Source: a virus. Taken from it: 27,595 nt of DNA. The position numbers and the translations under genes were made by a program. The stretch lies in IMG/VR virus record IMGVR_UViG_3300022223_000019, positions 1-27,595 of that record; one strand, 5' to 3'. This document shows positions 1,332 through 9,259 of this stretch, in pieces (the stretch's first letter is position 1; every line of letters starts with the position of its first letter). The notes below the pieces were generated by a model. The model was not told where the DNA came from, made no database searches, and saw only the letters and a program-made list of their open reading frames with translations.

Positions 1332-1997
1332 CTAAATCTCCTTTTCCAATACTACAAAATCAATTGATATTTCTCGGTTGGTGCAGCCGCGTGCGATGTT
1401 GCGCACGGTGGTTTTTGTGCGGTCTTCCAACCACTGGCGGTTATAATCATCAGAACATGCCAAAACCAACCTATCACCATCCAGCGATACGGGTACAACG
1501 GGCAACACAAATTGGTCAAAGGATACCTTGGCCATTTCTGATTTTAGCTGATTCCTTATGAGTTCCCAAAGTTTTAAAGAACCTTCTTTTGGTTCATAAT
1601 GATTAAAAGCGTTTAAAACGGTTAGGGGGACATCTATGTCCTCTATCGTGCCCTGGATGTCCTCTATTGTGCCGGAAATGTCCGGCATCGCGCCCTGGAC
1701 GTCCTCATCATCAAAGTCATAGGACATAATGTCCGGTATCGTTAGGGCGTATAGATTTATCTGGTAACGGTTATTTTTATGGTTTCTGTCCACGGACAGC
1801 TCCCCGGATTCCTCGAGTGATTGAATAATGCGCCTTACCTGGCGTTCTGATAGGCGTGATTTGCGTGCCAGGTATTCGATACCCGGGTATGCATAACCGC
1901 TATCATTGGCATTGTCGGCAATCGCCAGCAGCAAGAGCAATTCGCTGCCTTTGCGGCGGGAGGACTGCCAGATTTTGGACATTACTTTTATGCTCAT
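1332..1997 (-). CDS. Phage replication initiator: winged-helix domain plus DnaA domain I-like C-terminus
   Basis: 221 residues in three parts. Residues 1-85 form a winged helix of the phage replication-initiator type (KGSELLLLLAIADNAND, then YLARKSRLSERQVRRIIQSLEESGEL), predicted to bind origin DNA. Residues 86-140 are an acidic linker with four heptads at 99-126 starting DVQG, DISG, DIQG and DIDV. Residues 141-215 resemble DnaA domain I (LWELIRNQLKSEM, SFDQFVLPVVPV, and YNRQWLEDR), the part that contacts DnaB helicase and other partners in DnaA. The likely role is to open the phage origin and recruit the host helicase; no phage helicase is seen in this window. The ATG overlaps the upstream stop (ATGA). 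The linker DNA holds iteron-like repeats. Confidence 0.85.
   Translation of the reverse strand: MSIKVMSKIWQSSRRKGSELLLLLAIADNANDSGYAYPGIEYLARKSRLSERQVRRIIQSLEESGELSVDRNHKNNRYQINLYALTIPDIMSYDFDDEDVQGAMPDISGTIEDIQGTIEDIDVPLTVLNAFNHYEPKEGSLKLWELIRNQLKSEMAKVSFDQFVLPVVPVSLDGDRLVLACSDDYNRQWLEDRTKTTVRNIARGCTNREISIDFVVLEKEI
1628..1799. other. Putative phage replication origin inside the initiator gene
   Basis: The DNA coding for the initiator's linker and wing contains a dense set of ATGTCC / GGACAT words. Direct copies start at 1636, 1657, 1678 and 1729, with a variant (ACGTCC) at 1699, and inverse copies start at 1628 and 1722. Inverted repeats bound it: GGACAT-2nt-ATGTCC at 1628-1641, GGACAT-1nt-ATGTCC at 1722-1734 and CTGTCC-2nt-GGACAG at 1786-1799. 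Between the last two lies an A/T-rich stretch (about 1750-1785) that could serve as an unwinding element. This layout, iterons and an AT-rich tract inside the initiator gene, is the one known from the lambda O gene. Origin function is inference. Confidence 0.55.
1636..1719. repeat. Tandem 21-bp iteron-like repeats
   Basis: There are three clear tandem units of exactly 21 bp (1636-1656, 1657-1677, 1678-1698) and one degenerate unit (1699-1719). The consensus starts ATGTCC(T/G)(C/G)(T/C)AT(C/T)G and ends mostly in GCCCTGG. The period equals two DNA helical turns and seven codons, so the same repeat appears as heptads in the protein. A further copy of the core at 1729 is out of register. Confidence 0.75.
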
Positions 1998-2095
1998 ATT
2001 ATTTTTTTGATAAACAACAGATAGCCGGCGATCAGCACCGGGATAGCTTTTATCAAATATGCCAGGGCGTCGATCAGGGGTTGATAGTCACGCAT
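1994..2095 (-). CDS. 33-residue single-span membrane peptide
   Basis: The small reading frame encodes MRDYQPLIDALAYLIKAI followed by a hydrophobic stretch ending LIAGYLLFIKKII. It has one predicted transmembrane helix with a basic C-terminal end. The ATG has an AGGAGA site 8 nt upstream and lies 2 nt after the stop of the preceding regulator gene; its own stop overlaps the initiator ATG (ATGA). That tight spacing on both sides argues that it is translated. The function is unknown; a membrane anchor or small host-targeting peptide is possible but unsupported. A longer in-frame reading begins within the regulator gene and is less likely. Confidence 0.55.
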   Translation of the reverse strand: MRDYQPLIDALAYLIKAIPVLIAGYLLFIKKII

Positions 2096-2097
2096 GA

Positions 2098-2493
2098 TTA
2101 TTTTCTCCTTTCCCGCTTGCACTGCGGGCATTGCCCCTGGTTGGGGCTGGTTTTGATAAACGGCCTGCCGCAGTCTGACCACCTGCAGACTGCCGATGCG
2201 CCGTCAAATAGCGCGCCGGGCTTGACCTGCCCGGGGTGCGCTTTGATACTGGCTTCGACAAACGGCGGCGCATCATCCGAGTTGGATTGTGCGTATAGAG
2301 CCAGTACCGCGCCGTGGATCTCCGGGGAGATTGGATGCCGTCCGGATTCAAGGCTTGATATATAGCTGCGGGAATATGGCTGGCCCTTCCCGGCGGCAAT
2401 GGACAGCCTACTGCCGAAATCGGCCTGCGAGAGGTTCAGCGCATTACGCAACCATCTTATATCGTGTGGATTGATTCCATTCGAATTCAACAC
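2098..2493 (-). CDS. Xre-family HTH regulator with C-terminal zinc ribbon
   Basis: 131 residues, starting at GTG (2493): no in-frame ATG lies near, and GGGGGTG is about 8 nt upstream. Residues 7-65 form a Cro/C1-type helix-turn-helix (IRWLRNALNLSQADFGSRL, then SRSYISSLESGRHPISPEI). Residues about 103-131 carry CRWSDCG and CPQCK, two Cys pairs that look like a zinc ribbon. HTH-plus-ribbon proteins are DNA-binding regulators. Its place just before the initiator gene suggests control of the replication operon, which is inference. Confidence 0.75.
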   Translation of the reverse strand: MLNSNGINPHDIRWLRNALNLSQADFGSRLSIAAGKGQPYSRSYISSLESGRHPISPEIHGAVLALYAQSNSDDAPPFVEASIKAHPGQVKPGALFDGASAVCRWSDCGRPFIKTSPNQGQCPQCKRERRK

Positions 2494-2496
2494 CGA

Positions 2497-2805
2497 CTAA
2501 ACACCCCCACGGGCTTTTTGGCGTAGGTAATACAAAACATCATCAGCGGAGTATACCCAACTTCCACCCAATAACTGAATCCCGCGAGCGAGTCTCTTTT
2601 CGCGGGACAAAATCAGGCCCTTGGCCTCTAATCGCTCGAGATAATATCTAGCTACTGAGCTAGAGGTGGTATCGGTGTTGTTTATTATTTCATTTATTGT
2701 GGGTGATGTCCCCCCTGATTGTGCCATGTGCCTGACAATAAACTCAAATACCTGAAATTCACGGACGGTTAAATATTGCTTGAATTCGTCCAGGTTATAT
2801 TGCAT
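2497..2805 (-). CDS. LexA-like winged-helix DNA-binding protein without protease domain
   Basis: 102 residues. Residues 12-80 follow the LexA N-terminal DNA-binding domain closely: LTVREFQVFEFIVRH, then GTSPTINEIINNT and SSVARYYLERLEAKGLI, then a wing ending RGIQLLG. The Ser/Lys peptidase half of LexA is absent, so self-cleavage in an SOS response cannot occur in this polypeptide. The C-terminus (about 81-102) is a short helical tail. A strong AGGAGG lies 5 nt before the ATG, and the start overlaps the end of the upstream gene by 11 nt. It is probably a transcriptional regulator of the phage, possibly acting at host LexA-type operators; the target is unknown. Confidence 0.75.
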   Translation of the reverse strand: MQYNLDEFKQYLTVREFQVFEFIVRHMAQSGGTSPTINEIINNTDTTSSSVARYYLERLEAKGLILSREKRLARGIQLLGGSWVYSADDVLYYLRQKARGGV

Positions 2806-3217
2806 TTTGTCCTCCTGTCCCCAACGGTAAATCTAACTTTAACTGCGGGCTGATATCAGACTTAGCGTGCCGTAGTTGCGCGTTGATCCTTTGATTGGTG
2901 CTGATCGCCCGGTTGATATCCGATTTTAGGTGCGCTTCAAGCTCTGCCAGGTTGCGGGCCTTAAAATACCCGCCAGGGTTGTTTTTGCTGGGGAATACGT
3001 GGCAGATATCAAAGCCAAGGGTCGAGCAACGCAGATGGTATATCGCATTGCGCATATCGCGGTCATTGACCAGTAAAGTTTCACCGCGCACGCCTAAGCT
3101 GTGATTTGCCTGGGCAAATAGGGATTTCCGAGAAATTGTGTTTTCGGCGCCTGTGTGATCAAGCAATATTTTCTTGATCGTATACATTTGCGCCTTTGTG
3201 GGTTTCATCTTGGACAT
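2795..3217 (-). CDS. Phage protein with winged-helix-like core
   Basis: First gene of the leftward replication operon, 140 residues, with an excellent AGGAGGT site 5 nt upstream. The centre reads LLVNDRDMRNAIYHLRCS, then LGFDICHVFPSKNNPGGYFKARNLAELEAHL. That is the pattern of a compact winged helix: a helix, a short beta hairpin whose strand contains GGYF, and a following helix. Similar (D)RxxRxxIxxLR...GGY cores occur in small phage regulatory or replication-associated proteins. The C-terminal 45 residues are Gln/Asn/Arg-rich and helical, then disordered. Exact function unknown. Confidence 0.6.
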   Translation of the reverse strand: MSKMKPTKAQMYTIKKILLDHTGAENTISRKSLFAQANHSLGVRGETLLVNDRDMRNAIYHLRCSTLGFDICHVFPSKNNPGGYFKARNLAELEAHLKSDINRAISTNQRINAQLRHAKSDISPQLKLDLPLGTGGQNAI

Positions 3218-3247
3218 TTGTACCTCCTGTGTAAAGGTATAAAAGGT

Positions 3248-3442: not shown

Positions 3443-3629
3443 TCGTTGGGCAACACATTATGGCCCAAAGTCACCAATTGATTTTGACCGTATCTGCCAA
3501 CCATTAAGGCACGTTCCATGCGCGGGCAGATCGTTTTTGGGTGTCTTGTGATCGGGGCTTACCAGGTACCCGATCTGCATCGCCTTCCTGGAGGGGGAAC
3601 AGAAAAGATATTCCCAAAAATTGAACCTG
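3443..3629. other. Structured spacer between the two tRNA genes
   Basis: No gene or third tRNA is recognisable here. Overlapping inverted repeats are present: ATCTGCC 3492-3498 with GGCAGAT 3525-3531, GCAGATCG 3526-3533 with CGATCTGC 3571-3578, and GATCGGG 3550-3556 with CCCGATC 3569-3575. The arms share bases, so the first and second pairings exclude each other, as do the second and third. Confidence 0.45.
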
Positions 3630-3702
3630 AGCCGGGCGCCGGACTCGAACCGGCTACCTTTTGATTACAAGACAAACGCTCGACCAGTTGAGCTTGCCCG
3701 GC
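3630..3702 (-). tRNA. tRNA-Thr (TGT)
   Basis: A 73-nt tRNA on the minus strand: acceptor GCCGGGC/GCCCGGC fully paired, D stem GCTC/GAGC with GG in the loop, anticodon loop CTTGTAA (anticodon TGT, reads ACA), variable loop AGGTA, T arm GCCGG-TTCGAGT-CCGGC, discriminator U, no encoded CCA. Like its Met neighbour it has A at position 8 and a U31.U39 mismatch closing the anticodon stem. It lies in the leader of the leftward transcript, between the repressor-like gene and tRNA-Met. Confidence 0.9.
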
Positions 3703-4462: not shown

Positions 4463-5082
4463 GCGCCAAAACAGATTTCACCCTTGAGGAACTTGTCGAG
4501 ATCCGCCAGGCGTGGAATAACTACGCCACGGCAAACACGATCCCCAGCCAGGCATACCACGCCGTCAAGATATTGGGTCGGGCGGTTCATAATCGGGGAC
4601 ACGCCCGCCTACGGTTGGCCCAGGTCGACGGCGAATTTGCTTATAAATTCGATGTCAACGAAAAATACGCCGGATGGGATTTTGAGAATTTATATTCCTG
4701 GGAGATCACCGTCACCCGGCATCTTTACACACCGGGCATTGAAGATGAAATGATGGGGGTGGCATTGATTGGATCGCCTCAAAAGGATTGGGAGAAAAAA
4801 CAAGACTGTTTGATGAACTGGACTGAGGTTGTCGATTCCCACGGCCAGGTAATGCCAGGATATTATAAATATATTGCCGAGCGCAAAGCAAAAGATAATT
4901 TTGTAATTCCGGGTGACTGGTGGAAAGTTGTTGCAATGGTTGGCGAAAAAGCCGACCGGGTAAAAAATGAAGCCGCACTGAAGGATGAGAAAGTCACGGC
5001 GGCGGAACTTGCCCGCACGTTGATGATCGACCGGGTACCGGCTGAATATCTAAAAATCAAAAAGAACATGGAGAATAAATAA
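4459..5082 (+). CDS. Hypothetical protein upstream of the annealing protein
   Basis: 207 residues, coupled by 4-nt overlap to the gene before and by 1 nt to the RecT/Bet-like gene after. N-terminal residues 8-50 are helical; the middle is rich in Trp, Tyr and Asp (YAGWDFENLYSWEITVTRHL, then KDWEKKQDCLMNWTEVV); the C-terminal 70 residues are charged and helical. In phage recombination operons the partner of a single-strand annealing protein is often an exonuclease, but I see no Asp/Glu/Lys nuclease motif here, so that role is not claimed. Unrecognised family. Confidence 0.6.
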   Translation: MSAKTDFTLEELVEIRQAWNNYATANTIPSQAYHAVKILGRAVHNRGHARLRLAQVDGEFAYKFDVNEKYAGWDFENLYSWEITVTRHLYTPGIEDEMMGVALIGSPQKDWEKKQDCLMNWTEVVDSHGQVMPGYYKYIAERKAKDNFVIPGDWWKVVAMVGEKADRVKNEAALKDEKVTAAELARTLMIDRVPAEYLKIKKNMENK

Positions 5083-5984
5083 TGAGTGAAGGCACAGGCA
5101 AGGCAATAGCGATGTACGGCGAAAAGGCCGTACTGCATGACATGACCAACCGCATCCTTAAGATGATGGTCGGCACGCGTAAATTATCAAATTCTGAGGC
5201 GGCAACGCTGGCACAGATTAGCGTAATGCATGGCCTGGATCCATTCAACGGCGAAGCTTGGTATATTCCCGGTTCTGGCGTCATGGTCGGAATAAAGGGG
5301 TTGCGCAAGTCTGCCAAGAAGCAGCTGAAGAAAACCGCTGGCCCGGATGCGGCGTTCTGGGTGGAATTTGAAATGGAAGCCAGGCCGGAAGAGGTCGGCG
5401 CCGGCCCGAATGATATTGTATACCGCGCGTACTTGCGGGACAGCGAAACGCTGGAAGCGCACGCGGCCCGCCTCGAGAGGTATATCAAATTAGGGTATGC
5501 ACGGGATGAGGCAAGAGCCGAGGTCGGCCCCTCACCCAAGACGATCGGCACTGGAATTTACCGCCAGGGTGAAAAAACCAAGATGAACCCGCACGAATGT
5601 GCAATGAAGCGGGCGGAAGCCCATGCAATCAAACAGAGGTTCGACGTTGAATTCCTGGTATCAGACAATGATGATGTGCGGATCGATTTTGGCCCTGAGA
5701 TCGCCGCCGGCGATGATCATCCAGCGGACCAGGATGATTACATCGAAGCCGAATTCCACGATCAGGAACCGGCGCCTGCAGCGCCACCGGCAGCACCGCC
5801 ACCAGCCAAGGAAAAAAAGCCAGCGCCGGGAGTGGATCGCCAGGAGATTGATGATTTTTGGTCGGCGCAGCGAAAGACGGCGCTGAGCATTGGAGAGGCC
5901 AAAGAACTATTGTCCGAGTGTGGCCAGGATTACAAAGTGGCGCTTGAGGCGCTGAAAAAGAACCATATACCCCCGGAGGTGTAA
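5082..5984 (+). CDS. RecT/Bet-like single-strand DNA annealing protein
   Basis: 300 residues. Residues 35-85 carry the motif typical of RecT/Redbeta-superfamily recombinases: AATLAQISVMHGLDPFNGEAW followed by an IPG turn and MVGIKGLRKSAKK. The middle contains TKMNPHECAMKRAEAHAIKQRF, the second conserved block. After about residue 205 comes an acidic segment, a Pro/Ala linker (about 232-250) and a 45-residue helical C-terminal module (DDFWSAQRKTALSIGEAKELL). Such proteins coat resected single strands and anneal them to complementary DNA. The C-terminal module may be a protein-interaction piece, as in Redbeta (inference). No obvious exonuclease partner is adjacent. Confidence 0.7.
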   Translation: MSEGTGKAIAMYGEKAVLHDMTNRILKMMVGTRKLSNSEAATLAQISVMHGLDPFNGEAWYIPGSGVMVGIKGLRKSAKKQLKKTAGPDAAFWVEFEMEARPEEVGAGPNDIVYRAYLRDSETLEAHAARLERYIKLGYARDEARAEVGPSPKTIGTGIYRQGEKTKMNPHECAMKRAEAHAIKQRFDVEFLVSDNDDVRIDFGPEIAAGDDHPADQDDYIEAEFHDQEPAPAAPPAAPPPAKEKKPAPGVDRQEIDDFWSAQRKTALSIGEAKELLSECGQDYKVALEALKKNHIPPEV

Positions 5985-7939: not shown

Positions 7940-9259
7940 ATGGCAGAAAATAAAGCAGGCAATAATCAGGTTGGCCAGAAGTGGCGAAACAGAATCATTG
8001 ACGTGGGCGAAATTGACCCTGAGCAGATATTGGCTAACCCGCTAAACTTCCGCATCCATCCCAAGAACCAGCAAGATGCTTTATTGGGTGTGCTGGATGA
8101 GGTCGGTTGGGTTCAAGATGTGATTGTAAACGCCAGAACCAATACCCTGATTGATGGGCATTTGCGCGTGAAACTAGCATTGAGGCGGGGGGAGAAAACA
8201 GTACCGGCCAAGTTCGTGGATTTGTCCCCGGAAGAAGAGGCCCTGATACTTTCCACATTTGACCCCATAAGCGCACTGGCGGCCACGGACAAAGAGAAAC
8301 TAGATGAGCTATTGCAAAATGTAGACACAACGAATGAAGAACTTACCCAATTCCTGAGTGATTTTGCGGAGGACAATAATCTCTATTTTGGCGATCAACC
8401 TGAGGAATTAGAAGATCCCGGAGCAAGCATAGACAAAGCCGAAGAGCTAAGAGAGAAATGGGGCGTTGAAAGCGGGCAACTGTGGCAGCTTGGAAATCAT
8501 CGGGTGATATGCGGCGACTGCACGGATGCGGCGGTGGTTGATAGGTTGATGGATAAAGAAAAGGTTGACTGCTTATTTACATCCCCCCCATATGGTGTTG
8601 GTGTTGATTATGGGATATATGAGGATAATATAGATAACCTCAGAGAATTAATACCTGCGGTAGTTAGGATTGCCAATAAATATATAATCCGTGGGGGGTA
8701 TTGCGTGTTAAATTTCGGCGATATTATTACCGGGCGCACTGTAACCAATGGTAAATATCCGGAGGAATACCCAATGGCATTGGAGTATTACGGCCCATTT
8801 TCGGCGGGCGGGTTCAGATTGTGGTCAAGGAGGATTTGGGTAAAGCCGCACGCACGCGTTGCTGCGCCCTGGACGGCATCATCTAGCAGGGCCGCGAGTG
8901 ACTTTGAGCATATATGGACGTTTGTTAATAGTGACGATCAGATAACAGGTAGGACGGCGGGCGAATATAACAGCTATTTGGGATGGGTAGATACGTCAAA
9001 ACTAGATGGTGTAGACGTTGGGAAAGAAACGCATGGCGCGGGGATGCCGGTGTCGTTGGCCGTATGGATGATAAATATACATACGCTGCACGGGGGCGGC
9101 GTCGTTGAGCCATTTATAGGGACGGGCACAACCCTAATCGCCTGTGAGAAGCTATCCCGCAAGTGCTACGGGGTAGAGATTGAACCAAAATACGTGGCCG
9201 TAACACTGGAGCGCTGGCACGAGATGACCGGGAAAATGCCGGAATTGGTAAACGCATAA
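7940..9259 (+). CDS. ParB-like domain fused to a DNA methyltransferase (N6-A/N4-C type)
   Basis: 439 residues. Residues 18-125 are a ParB/Srx-like domain (VGEIDPEQILANPLNFRIHP, then LIDGHLRVKLALRRG). Residues 175-435 are an SAM-dependent DNA methyltransferase. The catalytic motif IV TSPPYG is at 214-219, and the SAM-binding motif I FIGTGTT is at about 392-398. Motif IV before motif I is the beta-class order. SPPY enzymes methylate the exocyclic amino group of adenine or cytosine. In phages such fusions usually protect phage DNA from restriction or tune packaging and transcription. It heads the late operon, directly before terminase; no matching restriction enzyme is seen. Confidence 0.9.
   Translation: MAENKAGNNQVGQKWRNRIIDVGEIDPEQILANPLNFRIHPKNQQDALLGVLDEVGWVQDVIVNARTNTLIDGHLRVKLALRRGEKTVPAKFVDLSPEEEALILSTFDPISALAATDKEKLDELLQNVDTTNEELTQFLSDFAEDNNLYFGDQPEELEDPGASIDKAEELREKWGVESGQLWQLGNHRVICGDCTDAAVVDRLMDKEKVDCLFTSPPYGVGVDYGIYEDNIDNLRELIPAVVRIANKYIIRGGYCVLNFGDIITGRTVTNGKYPEEYPMALEYYGPFSAGGFRLWSRRIWVKPHARVAAPWTASSSRAASDFEHIWTFVNSDDQITGRTAGEYNSYLGWVDTSKLDGVDVGKETHGAGMPVSLAVWMINIHTLHGGGVVEPFIGTGTTLIACEKLSRKCYGVEIEPKYVAVTLERWHEMTGKMPELVNA

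Follow-up and report, generated by a model that had tools for sequence, protein, structure and literature searches.

A probable replication origin in the linker-coding region of an HTH_36-type initiator gene of a tailed phage

The origin of bacteriophage lambda lies within a coding sequence, its iterons and AT-rich tract being placed midway along the initiator gene O (PMC7466680). Lambda O belongs to the Pfam family Phage_rep_O (PF04492); there are four 18-bp iterons at a spacing of 20–24 bp, and the partner replication protein P is encoded by the next gene. By analogy with lambda, an origin within repA has been suggested in work on mycobacteriophages, without repeats having been found (PMC7157519). 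Besides in-gene iteron origins, it is already known that a family of phage proteins is grouped as O-like in PHROGs, and that HTH_36 is combined with DnaA_N in a named phage, Brevibacillus phage Jenst. The locus described here resembles the lambda origin (and those of Stx phages P27 and 933W) in having mid-gene iterons behind an N-terminal DNA-binding domain and then an AT-rich tract, whereas it has GGACAT words, dyads and, in place of a partner such as P, a DnaA domain I within the initiator itself.

The window (the whole stretch of DNA analysed, 27,595 nucleotides) is a 27.6-kb virus record from a tailed phage, in which a PHROG scan identified a terminase of 500 amino acids. Its initiator gene (1332–1997, minus strand) encodes 221 amino acids, assigned by Pfam and PHROG to a winged helix (HTH_36), a linker whose coding sequence carries the iterons, and a DnaA domain I. 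The Pfam matches are to HTH_36 (E = 1.4e-11, above the Pfam cut-off) and DnaA_N (E = 2.2e-5), and the protein matches PHROG 391 (E = 6.6e-19), one of the replication initiation O-like families (PHROG 391, 1032 and 8540). The winged-helix DNA-binding domain (residues 1–82; 1752–1997, minus strand) was modelled by AlphaFold2 with pLDDT block means of 92–98 across residues 1–80, and the model matched winged-helix proteins in Foldseek (best E = 8.5e-4). The winged helix extends to about residue 80 and the DnaA-like domain begins at about residue 140, with the linker between them. Residues 50–59 (SERQVRRIIQ; 1821–1850, minus strand) form the recognition helix region.

PF04492 was absent from the phage initiator in the Pfam scan, and lambda O likewise gave no match to the HTH_36 profile. 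The C-terminal half of lambda O, however, matches phrog_391, a PHROG that in its own N-terminal half is similar to the window protein, indicating that the lambda O and HTH_36 families are mosaics. The preliminary description of the locus had called the initiator unrelated to that of lambda, which holds for the Pfam family of the N-terminal domain and fails for the C-terminal half of lambda O.

In viral and cellular genomes no relative above about 62% was found for the winged helix. Searching with short patterns from the complete protein gave no close relative, and the contig of the terminase relative L002 (59%) contained no match to the initiator. The nearest cellular relatives of the winged helix are from Chloroflexota/Anaerolineae. 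Since both these relatives and the alignment of the C-terminal module point to the same group, the phage probably has a host among the Chloroflexota/Anaerolineae, as judged from sequence. Elsewhere, the early region carries a tRNA-Thr gene (3629–3702, minus strand), and the window also has a gene (5082–5984, plus strand) with a weak match to a RecT-like ssDNA annealing protein (PHROG 2780, E = 3e-6), and a DNA methylase gene (7940–9259, plus strand) with N6_N4_Mtase at residues 209–422 and about 200 residues without assignment ahead of it. Further small HTH proteins are encoded near the initiator gene.

The C-terminal module (residues 140–220; 1338–1580, minus strand) is a candidate recruiter of host DnaB. 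Modelled together with Anaerolineae sequences, it gave a mean pLDDT of 88, and Foldseek matched the model to DnaA domain I of B. subtilis (4tps; E = 5.7e-9, TM 0.82/0.89), with a weaker structural match to the DnaB loader DciA. The suspicion that this part of the protein was DnaA domain I-like is thus confirmed by the predicted fold. The module shares this fold with DnaA domain I and is 24–33% identical to the domains of Anaerolineae DnaA, but the window protein, unlike DnaA, is without an AAA+ or DnaA DNA-binding domain and has domain I fused behind a winged helix. In E. coli, DnaA domain I touches DnaB via E21 and F46 (PMC5448010). By our own residue match-up the equivalents in the module are S and Y, respectively, as in most of the aligned Anaerolineae DnaAs. 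Neither Pfam nor PHROG recognised a helicase, loader or primase among the early genes, and direct recruitment of host DnaB by the module would be the simplest reading.

The same architecture, HTH_36 with DnaA domain I, was found in an Anaerolineae MAG (L168) and in the Jenst initiator (PHROG 26369). The latter also has a 22-bp in-gene repeat (p = 0.015), yet differs from the window in its distant sequence, longer linker, other word and repeat placed further back (nt 692). The HTH_36 O-like phage proteins of PHROG 391, 1032 and 8540 share with the window the N-terminal winged helix and in-gene linker repeats, whereas nearly all of them have other C-terminal modules. In Anaerolineae, L094 (4001–4777) encodes the same winged helix with a C-terminal DnaD-type DnaB_2 module instead. 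The helicase-recruiting C-terminal end therefore appears to be exchangeable in the HTH_36 family. Separately, five Anaerolineae loci (L185, L186, L192, L199 and L201, about nt 1430–3234) encode proteins of 580–600 amino acids with an N-terminal DnaA domain I, the DnaA AAA+ sequence being absent from the part read; these are possibly mobile-element initiators. A Leptolinea plasmid (L004, 2941–3828) encodes a protein that shares this N-terminal DnaA domain I and is shorter.

The top-scoring tandem array of the window (TRF) is a 21-bp unit present in 3.4 copies at 1636–1706. Iterons 1 (beginning ATGTCC; 1636–1656), 2 (1657–1677) and 3 (1678–1698) agree with one another at 12–17 of 21 positions, and a degenerate fourth (ACGTCC; 1699–1719) has 7–9 of 21 positions in common with the others. 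Six ATGTCC/GGACAT words fall within 107 bp, at 1628 (minus), 1636, 1657, 1678, 1722 (minus) and 1729, and the region contains three dyads: GGACAT-AG-ATGTCC (1628–1641), near-identical in the relative L193, GGACGTCC (1697–1704), and GGACAT-T-ATGTCC (1722–1734). None of 5000 shuffles of 1620–1745 reached the 21-bp self-match score. Across the whole window the word shows no excess (19 seen, 15 expected), so that its enrichment is local. Downstream of the iterons in the sense direction lies an A/T-rich tract (1568–1617), a candidate unwinding element; by 50-bp duplex stability, the 50 bp from 1568 rank within the weakest 0.4% of the contig, a level shared with about nine other places. The repeats, the extra copies of the word and the three dyads had all been reported in the preliminary description and proved to be present by TRF, shuffling and recoding, and the A/T-rich tract is likewise real, though not unique. 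The array had been placed in the coding region of both linker and wing; it occupies the linker part (residues 88–123), beyond the end of the winged helix.

Relatives were collected with a winged-helix profile (80 viral loci, 61 more, 14 genomic loci and further Anaerolineae genomes). After near-duplicates were dropped, 88 HTH_36 genes remained. Each was scored by its best self-match without gaps, and the score was set against those of 100 synonymous shuffles of the gene. Linker repeats exceeded codon chance in 76 of the 88 relatives at p ≤ 0.05 (59 at p ≤ 0.01), these genes being kin and the counts therefore not independent events; among 79 control genes taken from those loci, 4 did so (1 at p ≤ 0.01). 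The repeats start directly after the winged helix (median residue 100; 5–95% range, residues 80–128). As a positive control, the same test on lambda O recovered the annotated iterons (gene nt 348, p = 0.013). The in-gene iteron plan of lambda, originally proposed for this locus from its own sequence, is thereby supported, and the window has the linker-repeat trait of HTH_36 initiators, as defined in the present analysis and not by a published criterion. The commonest spacings in the relatives are 22, 21, 17, 33 and 23 bp, and the suggestion that a two-turn period reflects co-operative binding on one face of the DNA does not hold as a family rule.

We consider it probable that the segment is the replication origin of the phage, arranged as in lambda and contained in the stretch of the initiator gene that encodes the linker. 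The winged helix of the initiator would bind the GGACAT/ATGTCC words of its own gene, both the direct 21-bp repeats and the dyads; the assembled complex would strain and open the A/T-rich tract just downstream (1568–1617); and the C-terminal DnaA domain I module would then bring in the DnaB helicase of the host, a task for which lambda O depends on a separate partner. We infer binding, melting, helicase loading and a replication start at this site, the origin role being suggested by the lambda precedent, the position of the array and the neighbouring elements. Counting against this account are the serine and tyrosine at the E21 and F46 positions of domain I, the lack of a significant AACCRTCA array (described below) in the window, and the other places that are as unstable as the tract. 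The sign of the GC skew changes near 1.5–3 kb, which is also where gene orientation reverses; the skew is hence confounded and carries no weight as evidence.

The main rival to an origin is that the initiator-bound sites only regulate their own gene, as an in-gene operator or roadblock, with replication starting elsewhere. A winged-helix protein bound to its own gene could indeed repress it, and the co-variation of helix and word described below points to likely binding, not to function. Nevertheless, nearly all relatives have the sites in the linker, halfway along the gene (median residue 100), rather than near the promoter; an unstable tract adjoins them, as does, in many relatives, a second repeat array that is specific to one strand; and in the lambda family the same position serves as an origin. 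Purely regulatory sites are accordingly an unlikely reading.

Far less probable is a second account, by which the repeats mirror only the repeated linker peptide (disordered heptads, ED/PDI-G-TI) and the DNA words are a by-product. The linker peptide of the window is repetitive and the 21-bp spacing is a multiple of three. With the protein held fixed, the linker codons were reshuffled 3000 times and 6-mers were counted on both strands: the commonest linker 6-mer is present in 6 copies, compared with 2.57 ± 0.60 in the synonymous recodings (p = 3e-4 with the gene's own codons, 7e-4 with phage codon usage), so synonymous versions of the same protein fail to yield the words. The linker self-alignment (p = 0.017–0.026) and the dyads (p = 0.026–0.033) were less extreme under the same recoding. 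Moreover, the words are present in either orientation and are translated as xDI, MS and DVP, so that no single peptide accounts for them. Among the relatives, 40 of 76 repeat spacings are not multiples of three (36/23/17 by remainder); the reading frame is ignored, which makes their repeats a DNA-level property. Likewise, the near-identical dyad of L193, GGACATCTATGTCCCC, encodes GTSMSPE, while its window counterpart, GGACATAGATGTCCCC, encodes EDIDVPL in another frame. Retention of the heptads with loss of the words in relatives had been set out beforehand as the pattern that would indicate constraint on the protein alone; the opposite was found, relatives losing the heptads and keeping DNA repeats in any frame. 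In the two ATGTCC-bearing relatives the recognition helices are closely alike, and the peptides encoded at the words differ. A repeat at the protein level alone was rejected on the synonymous shuffles, the out-of-frame repeats and the control gene set, and there is a DNA-level constraint beyond the protein.

The recognition helix and the DNA word vary together. Over 111 initiators, similarity in the recognition helix (residues 50–59) predicts common repeated 6-mers when the rest of the domain is controlled for (partial Mantel r = 0.287, p = 0.002). Only three of the 111 have at least two linker copies of ATGTCC/GGACAT, namely the window (SERQVRRIIQ), L208 (SERQIRRIIY) and L193 (SERQVKRAIA), and both L208 and L193 are within the three helices nearest to that of the window, out of 110; by our own arithmetic, chance would put two ATGTCC genes among the first three roughly once in 2000. 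The SERQ helices of L096 and L202 go with GGGTGACA-type words instead, hence a helix matches a neighbourhood of words rather than a single one. L202 shows the family plan in compact form, its helix being of the SERQ type and its iteron word a different one: its gene has GGGGTGACA direct repeats and then a CATGTCACCC arm and AACCATCA words at nt 235–480. On sequence grounds there is a strong case for the words as DNA sites, and a good one that the initiator reads them, very probably by binding. That the array is a site for another protein (a repressor, partition or packaging factor) in the gene by chance is the least probable account, for although genes of other small HTH proteins lie close by, the word follows the initiator's own recognition helix among relatives.

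Many HTH_36 O-like genes, unlike the window, carry a second array downstream of the iterons. The element AACCRTCA was found in 57 of 88 genes, 38 of which have more than one copy, mostly 10–12 bp apart, at about gene nt 330–490 (initiators L010–L104, from phages of many hosts). It is markedly strand-specific, with 114 sense copies against 5 on the other strand and a synonymous-shuffle expectation of 15.6 (maximum 26), and it falls in each of the three frames; translated, the array yields the recurrent peptide KPSxNHQEPS. Tandem AACCRTCA pairs occur at 80 or more loci of the viral collection; among the matches listed, 42 are in recognisable family initiators and a few more resemble truncated ones. 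The array was expected in the window too, where only an unconvincing degenerate run was seen (3–4 copies, p = 0.06–0.09; chain score −2.0, family median 11). AACCRTCA may be a common unwinding or helicase-loading element. Open-access papers, the literature covered by our search, contained no description of this element or of in-gene iterons in the HTH_36 family.

To our knowledge, therefore, the family-wide in-gene iterons as a DNA feature, the helix–word co-variation and the AACCRTCA array are new within open-access papers, and the swapped DnaA module together with the family-wide array is less familiar than the lambda plan itself. A wider proposition, on which we are evenly balanced, is that the genes of HTH_36 initiators are self-contained origins and make up a large class, for the most part undescribed. 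In this class, in-gene iterons would co-evolve with the recognition helix, so that helix and word form a code that can be read; in many phages whose hosts are unrelated, an AACCRTCA array, strand-specific and with one-turn spacing, would follow the iterons and serve as a shared element for opening or helicase loading; and the C-terminal recruiter could be swapped between a lambda O-type, a DnaD-type and, as here, a DnaA domain I borrowed from the host initiator. The present findings give a means, from sequence only, of placing replication origins in many uncultured phages, and a natural series in which a winged-helix recognition helix and its DNA word vary together and from which a recognition code could be deduced. 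The AACCRTCA array, in whichever frame it is read, is a candidate common origin-opening element, and the C-terminal swap for host DnaA domain I suggests how a phage may dispense with a helicase loader of its own.
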